From positions 1-39,285 of the forward strand of contig CAIUKU010000132.1 in assembly GCA_903899825.1 (NCBI GenBank): a DNA stretch of 39,285 nt, written 5' to 3'. The DNA comes from an uncultured Bacteroidales bacterium (GTDB lineage: Bacteria > Bacteroidota > Bacteroidia > Bacteroidales > JACABE01). Position numbers and translations under genes: made by a program. A model generated the notes under the pieces. That model had not been told where the DNA came from. It ran no database searches and worked only from the letters and a program-made list of their open reading frames with translations. This document shows, one piece after another, positions 24,418 through 25,897 of this stretch. Numbering within the stretch: the stretch's first letter is position 1; each line of letters starts with the position of its first letter.

Positions 24418-24568
24418 TCTCCTTTTAGAGCCTTTCCCGATTTTTCATTGGGAAGAGGTTAGGGTGAGGTCGTGTTAATTTTGCAAAACTATTATTTTGT
24501 TTTTATGAAATTTTGGGCAGCTTAGCGTTTGGCTACAACCTCACCCCCGTCTCTCCTAAAAGGAGAGG
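24418..24568. repeat. REPIN-like inverted pair A of palindromic modules
   Basis: A forward module (24418-24474: hairpin remnants TCTCCTTTTAGAG and TTCCC/GGGAA, then GAGGTTAGGGTGAGGT) is followed by a reverse module (24531-24568: CTACAACCTCACCCCCG then CTCTCCTAAAAGGAGAG). Together they make a ~150-bp element with inverted ends around a spacer that begins TTAATTTTGCAAAACTATTA, the same spacer start as in pair B at 25382-25535. Confidence 0.7.
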
Positions 24569-24639
24569 TGCTACTGTACTGTAAATGTGACATATTAGTG
24601 CGTTGTAGTAAGCTTACTATTTTTACAAATGTATGAAAT
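24551..24639 (+). repeat. Direct repeat R1, left border of the DUF559 gene
   Basis: 89 bp that recur at 25101-25189. The block 24561-24590 (30 bases, from AGGAGAGGTGCTACTG to AAATGTGA) is identical in both, and most of the rest agrees (GTGCGTTGTAG, TTTTTACAAAT, TATGAAA). The copy ends 12 bp before the stop codon of the DUF559 gene. Confidence 0.85.
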
Positions 24640-24650
24640 TAATGGTAAAA

Positions 24651-25037
24651 TTATAGTGTATTCATATATTTTTCAATACCCTGTAAAACTCCAGCTATGT
24701 TTGTCATTACGCTTTTATTTTCAAAGCGAATTACCTTTAATCCAAGTTCATTCAGCTCATACGTTCTGTTTACATCTCTTTCATGTTGAATTTCCTGTAA
24801 ATGAACGCCACCATCAATTTCAATAACCAATTTCAATGTATGACAATAAAAATCTACGATAAATCGATTAATTGGATGCTGTCTTCTAAATTTTAAACCG
24901 TGAAACTGATTATTTTGAAGATATTGCCATAATTTCGTTTCTGCCACAGTCATGGTTTTCCTTAAAACACGGGCTCGTTTTATAATTTCTTCCGAAGCTC
25001 CGAAATAGAAATTTTCCTTGCCTTTTACGAATACCAT
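24651..25037 (-). CDS. DUF559 (Vsr-like) endonuclease-domain protein
   Basis: A 128-aa protein that is essentially one DUF559 domain, related to very-short-patch-repair endonucleases (PD-(D/E)XK fold). Hallmarks: ASEEIIKRARVLRKTMTVAETKLWQYL helix pair (14-40), KFRRQHPINRFIVDFYC (49-65) with Asp62, LVIEIDGGVH (70-79) with Glu73 and Asp75, and the closing GLKVIRFENKSV (99-110). All expected catalytic acids are present, so it is probably active; its DNA target is unknown. It is the only gene in 1.8 kb of palindromic repeats, bracketed by two 89-bp direct repeats. A TAACTTTG -7 match lies only 4 bp before the ATG, so the message may be almost leaderless. Confidence 0.9.
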   Translation of the reverse strand: MVFVKGKENFYFGASEEIIKRARVLRKTMTVAETKLWQYLQNNQFHGLKFRRQHPINRFIVDFYCHTLKLVIEIDGGVHLQEIQHERDVNRTYELNELGLKVIRFENKSVMTNIAGVLQGIEKYMNTL

Positions 25038-25041
25038 ACTA

Positions 25042-25049
25042 CAAAGTTA
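25042..25049 (-). promoter_or_regulatory. Candidate -7 element right at the DUF559 start
   Basis: TAACTTTG on the minus strand matches the -7 consensus, with TTTC 21 nt upstream (25071-25074). It ends 4 bp before the ATG, which would make a leaderless transcript; a chance match in AT-rich DNA is also possible. Confidence 0.33.
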
Positions 25050-25100
25050 AAATTATTTATTAAACAGTCAGAAAATTTGCAATTAGCTCTGCCAGAATTC

Positions 25101-25189
25101 CTCTCCTCTTAGGAGAGGTGCTACTGTACTGTAAATGTGATATGTTAGTGCGTTGTAGCAAAGTTTTTATTTTTTACAAATATATGAAA
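25101..25189 (+). repeat. Direct repeat R2, right border of the DUF559 gene
   Basis: Second copy of the 89-bp repeat at 24551-24639, with 30 identical bases at 25111-25140. Its palindrome (25100-25118) reads CCTCTCCTCTTAGGAGAGG. The two copies lie 550 bp apart with the endonuclease gene between them. Confidence 0.85.
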
Positions 25190-25303
25190 GTTTCTTTAAT
25201 GCAATAATATTTATAATTAGCTCTGTAAGAGTTCCTCTCCTTTTAGGAGAGGTTAGGTCGTGTCAATATTGCAAAACTATTTTTTTATGTCATTATGAGC
25301 AAT
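25150..25303 (+). repeat. Palindromic repeat unit 1 (154 bp)
   Basis: Starts GCGTTGTAGCAA, runs through TTTTTTACAAATATATGAAAG, AATGCAATAATATTTATAAT and TTAGCTCTG, then the perfect palindrome CCTCTCCTTTTAGGAGAGG (25234-25252), GTTAGGTCGTGT and ATTGCAAAACTATTTTTTTATG. The next unit begins directly. Confidence 0.85.
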
Positions 25304-25566
25304 GCGTTGTAGCAAGCTTATATTTTTTTACAAATGTATAATTTTTTTTAATGCAATAATATTTATAATTAACTCTGAGTTCCTCTCCTTTTAGGAGAGG
25401 TTAGGTGAGGTTGTCCAATTTTGCAAAACTATTATTTTGTTATTATGGCGTTATGGGCAATGGCGTTTTACTTAGGGTCAGTAAAAGTAGTAAGTACATT
25501 TGCAACCTCATCCCCGCTTCTCCTAAAAGGAGAAGAGTCAGATTCCCAGTAGTTTGGTATGTAAGT
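25304..25566 (+). repeat. Palindromic repeat unit 2 with inverted pair B
   Basis: Same order as unit 1: GCGTTGTAGCAAGCTTA, TTACAAATGTAT, AATGCAATAATATTTATAAT, then palindrome CCTCTCCTTTTAGGAGAGG at 25382-25400. After its GTTAGGTGAGGTTGT tail and spacer comes a reverse module (25502-25535: GCAACCTCATCCCCG and CTTCTCCTAAAAGGAGAAG). The 154-bp stretch 25382-25535 is thus a second inverted pair like 24418-24568. Confidence 0.85.
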
Positions 25567-25700
25567 GGGTTGTAGCAAGCTTAATATTTTTTACAAATGT
25601 ATGAAAGTTTTTTTAATGCAGTATTATTTATAATTAGCTCTGCTCTAACGCCTCTCCTTTTAGGAGAGGTTGGGTGAGGTTGTATAAAGTTTGCTCAAAT
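25567..25700 (+). repeat. Palindromic repeat unit 3
   Basis: GGGTTGTAGCAAGCTTA, TTTTTTACAAATGTATGAAAG, AATGCAGTATTATTTATAAT, TAGCTCTGCTCTAACG, then palindrome CCTCTCCTTTTAGGAGAGG at 25651-25669 and tail GTTGGGTGAGGTTGT. After this the similarity stops. Confidence 0.83.
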
Positions 25701-25810
25701 CAATCCTGAAAAAAGTACCCTTAATCCTCATTAAGAATCATAACAGGCTATCACCAGAAACCAGAATAGAGGTTCTCCTAATCAAATTTATCTTTATTTC
25801 AAAGCACTAA

Positions 25811-25897
25811 TATTTTAAAAAGCTCTGCTCTAACGCCTCTCATCTTAGGTTAGGTCGTGTTAATTTTGTATAACTATTATTTTCATGCCATTATATG
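25811..25897 (+). repeat. Degenerate palindromic repeat unit 4
   Basis: The 21 bases at 25821-25841 are identical to 25636-25656 in unit 3. The palindrome is broken (CCTCTCATCTTAGGTTAGG), but the tail GTCGTGTTAATTTTG and ACTATTATTTTCATGCCATTA still match the other copies. Confidence 0.75.

Follow-up and report, generated by a model that had tools for sequence, protein, structure and literature searches.

Homing endonuclease sites prefer the conserved motifs of conserved genes (PMC3943268). The Box C repeat of E. coli is a stem-loop of 56 bp that is present in 32 copies (PMC2267715). The Caulobacter protein VsrA is a DUF559 protein and has been linked to cytosine methylation (PMC12907096). Our literature search, with most subscription journals outside it, found no paper coupling DUF559 with repeats or mobility, and the novelty of the element described here is provisional. 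To our knowledge, no mover of Box C is known. The window, which is the whole 39,285-bp stretch of DNA that was analysed, belongs to a draft genome of 526 contigs (its own genome below). Our reading is that the palindromes of the window are probably the ends of a tiny selfish element, which carries one gene only, for the nuclease DUF559, and that this nuclease is probably homing-like.

The window was searched for CCTCTCCTTTTAGGAGAGG with up to 3 mismatches, and shuffled sequence was used as the control. The palindrome was found at six places between 24550 and 25669 (24550 on the minus strand, 25100, 25234, 25382, 25517 on the minus strand, and 25651), with at most two mismatches at each, and the shuffled sequences gave 0 matches. 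These six are the only palindromes of the class with a CT-rich 5' arm in all 39,285 bp. Chance was rejected by the shuffles here and, for the coupling with DUF559, by the random positions given below. A clear GGTTAGGTGAGGT tail follows 25382, 25651 and the 24418 unit, and stands in inverted and varied form at 24551 and 25517. The tail is truncated at 25234 and 25835, and absent at 25100. The initial annotation had counted at least eight copies of one module, a hairpin head followed by this tail. Six good palindromes stand, the copies at 24418 and 25835 are degenerate, and the tail occurs in about five of the eight positions. The features are as follows.

24418–24473, plus strand: degenerate copy with a different hairpin and a good tail, GGTTAGGGTGAGGT (sequence)
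24537–24549, minus strand: outward tail of the 24550 end, AACCTCACCCCCG on the plus strand (sequence)
24550–24568, minus strand: terminal palindrome on the 3' side of the DUF559 gene, 1 mismatch to the core
24550–25118, minus strand: gene-bearing (autonomous) unit of palindrome, arm, DUF559, arm and palindrome; first 89 and last 47 bp common to the gene-less units
24651–25037, minus strand: DUF559 nuclease gene, 128 aa, the only gene of the element (PF04480, E 2.4e-36)
25100–25118, plus strand: terminal palindrome on the 5' side of the DUF559 gene, shared with the next unit, without tail (CCTCTCCTTTTAGGAGAGG search and sequence)
25100–25252, plus strand: gene-less 153-bp unit, MITE-like internal deletion derivative (alignment to both ends of the gene unit)
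25234–25252, plus strand: palindrome with exact core and truncated tail (CCTCTCCTTTTAGGAGAGG search)
25300–25400, plus strand: truncated gene-less unit that ends in the palindrome 25382–25400 (alignment; repeat families D1, D2 and D7)
25399–25411, plus strand: outward tail GGTTAGGTGAGGT (sequence)
25517–25669, plus strand: second complete gene-less unit, palindrome at each end (alignment to the gene unit)
25651–25669, plus strand: palindrome with exact core and tail GGTTGGGTGAGGT (CCTCTCCTTTTAGGAGAGG search and sequence)
25835–25883, plus strand: degenerate copy with broken hairpin (3' arm lost) and truncated tail (repeat families D1 and D5)

The module had been taken as the basic repeat. Alignment of the units showed that it is rather the end of longer repeated units. 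The start of 25100–25252 has 86.5% identity to the first 89 bp of the gene-bearing unit and its end has 85.1% identity to the last 47 bp, while the middle 433 bp of 24550–25118, including the DUF559 gene, are absent. The second complete gene-less unit matches the gene unit at 90.7% over 43 bp and at 81.8% over 44 bp. As in a MITE with an autonomous partner, the gene-less units share their ends with the gene-bearing one, and judged by these alignments the relation is like that of an autonomous element to its internally deleted, MITE-like derivatives. DUF559 and the palindromes are coupled in the window because the palindromes end both the gene-bearing unit and the gene-less derivatives.

The sole gene among the palindromes is, as first described, a DUF559 gene with its conserved acids intact. 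The Pfam match is that listed above, and E33, D62, E73, D75 and H79 are all present in the window protein. All five are retained by 42 of the 43 embedded copies and by 58 of the 59 free ones (100/102); because these copies were picked by score, the set is poor in decayed ones. The dN/dS was 0.03–0.26 in the pairs that were computable with differences in both classes. The AlphaFold2 model of the window protein (pLDDT 87.9) had PDB 3hrl, a putative gonococcal endonuclease, and the I-Bth0305I catalytic domain (E 2.4e-4, TM 0.77 by target length) as its matches, and the match to Vsr was weaker. The predicted fold matches that of a known homing nuclease. In Pfam, the window protein gave DUF559 and a sub-threshold MTES_1575 only, with no match to PF03852 (Vsr) and no strand-transfer, HUH or separate DNA-binding domain. 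We take the DUF559 protein to be without the extra DNA-binding domains of the I-Bth0305I-type homing enzymes.

The initial annotation asked whether the module is dispersed beyond this place and in intergenic sites, and both were found to be so. Copies occur at other sites of the own genome, mostly outside long ORFs and in some cases inside ORFs, and the 89-bp part of the unit lies at 92% on another contig (C34, locus L001). One palindrome of the own genome (L269, contig C251), with a TTTGGAGAGG tail, lies inside a 284-aa open frame and directly precedes the apparent start of an ABC-transporter ATPase. The closest related DUF559 gene found in another genome (L023) is 79% identical, and beyond the gene itself its locus shares just 37 bp of module sequence with the window; the 10 kb on one side had no further match. 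Two loci on different contigs of genome G078 (L142 and L166) share 490 bp at 85.5%, and the similarity runs from outer palindrome to outer palindrome and stops there. Between species, the similarity of L116 to L123 and of L156 to L184 is likewise confined to the element. These comparisons showed that related units lie at unrelated places and that the similarity stops at or near the palindromes.

The two ends of a unit also resemble each other. The similarity between the upstream and downstream palindromes of one unit was 0.738, compared with 0.524 to the palindromes of other units, and the best of 5000 permutations reached 0.569. Palindrome similarity also rises weakly with DUF559 similarity across families (r 0.185; null maximum 0.093). 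In embedded copies the tail commonly lies outermost, and in free-standing copies its orientation is mixed. A DUF559-less palindrome pair (L245) is predicted to fold into one long stem as single-strand DNA (z -7.2). No clear target-site duplication was seen at E. coli fimH-gntP, at phnP-yjdP or at L142 and L166, and no base-exact empty site was clear. Dispersed intergenic copies at unrelated places, matched ends within units, and MITE-like deletion derivatives would also suit a DUF559 that acts like a transposase, as an end-processing nuclease that would cut at the hairpin ends and carry the unit to other sites. This is the main rival to a homing-like nuclease, and the insertion sites in host genes bear on it.

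In-frame insertion in host genes is the least expected result. Among 100 DUF559 domains of Bacteroidota, 42 lie in frame inside larger ORFs (>260 aa). Among the DUF559 matches listed, frames of >260 aa made up 47/150 phylum-wide and 39/69 in one genus. The flanking palindromes of embedded copies are mostly translated too, giving peptides such as SPLPLGEGLGEG. By Pfam, the 41 hosts scanned included LeuRS (7), MetH (6), HsdR (5), RecG (4), N6-methylase (3), methylmalonyl-CoA mutase (2), and others. An intron or intein as the carrier of the embedded copies was rejected: the 8 hosts scanned singly had no intein domain, and seven loci examined for an intron had none.

The insertion sites recur and abut strongly conserved motifs. 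The RecG site lies before MTATP, the MetH site before DVHDIG, the HsdR site before QGSGKS, and the LeuRS sites before TTRPDT and before TMPGWAGSSWY. In one genus, the RecG site is empty in 16 genomes (KLWKKN-IPPH; LWRKN in one) and filled by the element in two others (G084 and G290). LeuRS site 2 is empty in L231, holds a DUF559 element in L232, L242 and L244, and holds the DUF559-less palindrome pair, about 28 extra codons, in L245. As in homing, occupied and empty alleles are found at one conserved site in relatives, in both RecG and LeuRS. The HsdR gene of the own genome has a gene-less module in frame at the corresponding position (L272). In some relatives these conserved sites are filled. 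In others they are empty or, at LeuRS and HsdR, carry a palindrome module that lacks DUF559. Within a single genus, occupancy is patchy.

Several further loci were observed. At LeuRS site 2 of L246 (G122) there is an unrelated-looking in-frame sequence of about 130 aa (RFDFFVEENNVGIAFEL), perhaps a decayed DUF559 or another nuclease. The own genome has a second DUF559, in frame in leucyl-tRNA synthetase (L011, C477:835-4137), in which E73 is changed to Q and H79 is lost; the sole remnant at its edge is the tail piece CCTCACCCC, and it looks like a dead copy. One 1386-aa open frame has two DUF559 matches (G361:C58:27550-28752), possibly two sites of one host gene filled together. Two genomes of one genus have DUF559 at a further MetH-like site, before FLTLRQQ...ADFIAPKDSG (L307, L315). 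In three genomes of one genus, DUF559 lies in frame in a large host ORF, before NAYVQYFLDIVLERDIRNQAGI (L312, L321, L322).

The DUF559 domains group by host site, with 8 changes in the tree compared with 19.1 in shuffles. A branch separates the MetH copies, which come from four families, from the others, and another does so for the RecG copies. At third codon positions, the element was more alike than its host in some pairs (98 vs 83, 82 vs 55, and 73 vs 54), which suggests, and does not prove, lateral spread. Site-specific DUF559 clades could also be explained by vertical descent with losses. A transposase-like DUF559 is hard to reconcile with the re-use of conserved sites, each with its own DUF559 clade. 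A predicted fold closest to a homing endonuclease, a protein in which no strand-transfer or HUH domain was found, and insertions at which no clear target-site duplication was seen also argue against it, and we consider it unlikely.

The coupling of DUF559 and palindromes is general. Of 346 Bacteroidota genomes, 198 have DUF559. The window and an earlier locus set served to define the palindrome class, which was then tested on a largely separate set of 100 high-scoring DUF559 loci, all from Bacteroidota, with up to 6 kb on each side. A CT-rich palindrome lies within 250 bp of the DUF559 domain at 84 of the 100 loci, and on both sides at 65. Random positions in the same loci (500 draws) gave 3.7 flanked loci (maximum 10) and 0.14 flanked on both sides (maximum 1). 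The density of palindromes decreases from 4.7–6.5 per kb within 100 bp of DUF559 to about 0.08 per kb at distances above 2 kb. Palindromes of the mirror class, in which the 5' arm is AG-rich, are nearly absent around the loci. At 55 named GTDB loci, mostly cross-phylum (Bacteroidota, Planctomycetota, Alphaproteobacteria with many Brevundimonas, Spirochaetes, Patescibacteria, Bacillota, and others), palindromes were found at 48, and on both sides at 31. They were beside 0 of 28 Vsr genes, which rules them out as a general trait of Vsr-fold nuclease genes. The association of DUF559 genes with the module, proposed at the outset, is confirmed by these counts.

At genome level, 66 of the 147 genomes that match DUF559 strongly had at least 3 palindromes of the form CCTCYCC-N2-8-GGRGAGG, compared with 20 of the other 199. 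Palindromes are commoner in genomes with DUF559, and not equally common as in the refuting case named by the initial annotation (odds ratio 7.3, Fisher p 1e-13; 346 genomes, counts copied by hand, phylogeny uncorrected). Some genomes are rich in palindromes and have no DUF559. Many palindromes of G086 and G125 keep the tail, and in G030 the tail differs. The loci of G030, which has no DUF559 match (L251-L263, odd numbers), and L187 carry another tail with a second small hairpin (TGTCGCGAAGCGACGGAGGGGT, TGGCCCGCAGGGCCGGAGGGGT). The flanking tests support the claim that DUF559 belongs with the palindromes; that it also moves them is probable.

Such genomes with palindromes and no DUF559 would fit ordinary REPs moved by a RAYT (Y1/HUH) or another transposase elsewhere, with DUF559 as a bystander. 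REPs are likewise small, palindromic, dispersed and tailed, and the own genome has 7 Y1_Tnp matches. The module was at none of the five Y1 loci inspected there. RAYT was set aside as an unlikely mover of the window module because the inspected own-genome Y1 genes have other palindromes or none. Moreover, DUF559 is flanked far above chance, the units seem to move whole with the gene included, and the palindromes and nuclease co-vary, so the bystander reading is highly improbable. Two of the Y1_Tnp genes, L343 (GATGTCCGTAGGACATC) and L346 (TAGTCGTAGCGGGACGCTACGACTA), have their own, other palindromes and look like ordinary REP/RAYT loci. The REP/RAYT-like picture of the initial annotation holds for tailed, dispersed palindromes around one nuclease, and is less apt for the element ends, the fixed in-frame sites and the homing-like fold.

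A host-serving, Vsr-like repair or defence nuclease with regulatory or terminator palindromes and useful in-frame fusions has VsrA and the restriction-modification genes among the main hosts in its favour, and it has very little chance of being right against two-sided palindromes translated in frame in LeuRS, MetH and RecG, which do not fit terminators, patchy occupancy within one genus, DUF559-less versions that persist at the same sites, and an own-genome LeuRS copy that has lost catalytic residues. Palindromes on both sides and in frame inside ORFs rule out simple terminators.

In E. coli K-12, ycjD, which adjoins fabI, encodes a DUF559 protein (E 1.4e-49) with 40% identity to that of the window. 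A palindrome of the same class (CCCCTCACCCTAACCCTCTCCCCAGAGGGGCGAGGGG) adjoins ycjD, and another overlaps its end. A long hairpin upstream of ycjD (CACCTCATTCTGACAAGATTTAATCTTTTGTCAGAATGAGGTG; L323:3762-3804) is unlike the downstream palindromes in sequence. Among 5426 E. coli genomes, 3363 contain the ycjD region over at least 80% of its length. The ycjD-linked 51-bp palindrome is dispersed in nearly all E. coli genomes (median 16 places), and it also occurs as a pair at phnP-yjdP. Strains differ in its presence at two sites, in part through deletion. The palindrome-free phnP-yjdP site was rejected as an empty target and looks like a deletion, because extra host bases are missing too. The ycjD-less strains are not simple empty sites, since an efflux operon stands there: a TetR/RND/OMF/MFS cluster lies between fabI and sapF (L329, L324-L326), and the full cluster was seen in one strain. 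ycjD with its dispersed palindromes and the window system look alike. Box C has been found beside envM/fabI, and on this ground the ycjD-linked palindrome probably belongs to the Box C family.

We propose that DUF559 works like a Vsr/EDxHD homing nuclease. Its nick or cut would fall in a target without the element, or in the hairpin ends, and the element would be copied in by host repair. The hairpins may keep the two termini of the element in contact, and they may also allow gene-less copies to be processed in trans by the nuclease. Internal deletion would give gene-less palindromes, which are possibly served in trans. The open palindromic ends would let the element be read through in coding genes, and we propose that it survives there because it is read through as an inserted domain and is not spliced. 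Several observations weigh against this mechanism: the mixed tail orientation of free-standing copies, the lack of a clear target-site duplication or base-exact empty site, the palindrome-rich genomes that have no DUF559, a possible vertical descent of the site-specific clades, and a protein without the extra DNA-binding domains of I-Bth0305I-type enzymes. More broadly, we lean towards the view that DUF559 is an unrecognised, phylum-spanning selfish class: a minimal Vsr-fold homing nuclease with palindromic ends, inserted unspliced and in frame in conserved genes, with gene-less palindromes seeding REP-like families (including the E. coli ycjD-linked repeats) and with decay to inert domains.

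If this is true, a widespread 'domain of unknown function' is the engine of a mobile element, and a mover is explained for a class of palindromic repeats without a known one. A homing-type nuclease could then live in essential genes without an intron or intein, by in-frame read-through. The 'LeuRS-DUF559' and 'RecG-DUF559' fusions are probably insertions and not functional domain combinations. E. coli K-12 ycjD and its dispersed palindromes are a directly testable laboratory system.

Compared with known systems, the DUF559 element resembles EDxHD homing endonucleases such as I-Bth0305I in its predicted fold, in insertion beside conserved motifs of conserved genes, in empty and filled alleles, and in site-specific lineages. 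Unlike them, it is not in an intron or intein in the hosts and loci scanned and is read through in frame, it has palindromic ends, gene-less derivatives and intergenic dispersal, and its protein is small with no separate DNA-binding domain detected. Like REP/REPIN sequences with their RAYT (TnpA-REP), it has short tailed palindromes, single or in inverted pairs, around a single nuclease gene, and gene-less copies are dispersed. The associated gene is DUF559, a nuclease of the Vsr/PD-(D/E)XK fold, and not a Y1/HUH tyrosine nuclease, and the element has fixed in-frame coding sites, unlike REP/RAYT. Rickettsia palindromic elements (RPE) and other MITEs in coding genes are also small palindromic in-frame units with internally deleted derivatives; unlike RPE, an autonomous DUF559 nuclease form occupies the same kinds of site. 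The modelled general fold of DUF559 is like that of the Vsr repair endonuclease, whose genes lack such palindromes (0/28). E. coli Box C, a stem-loop of about 50–56 bp in tens of copies, is likened to the ycjD-linked palindrome by description.
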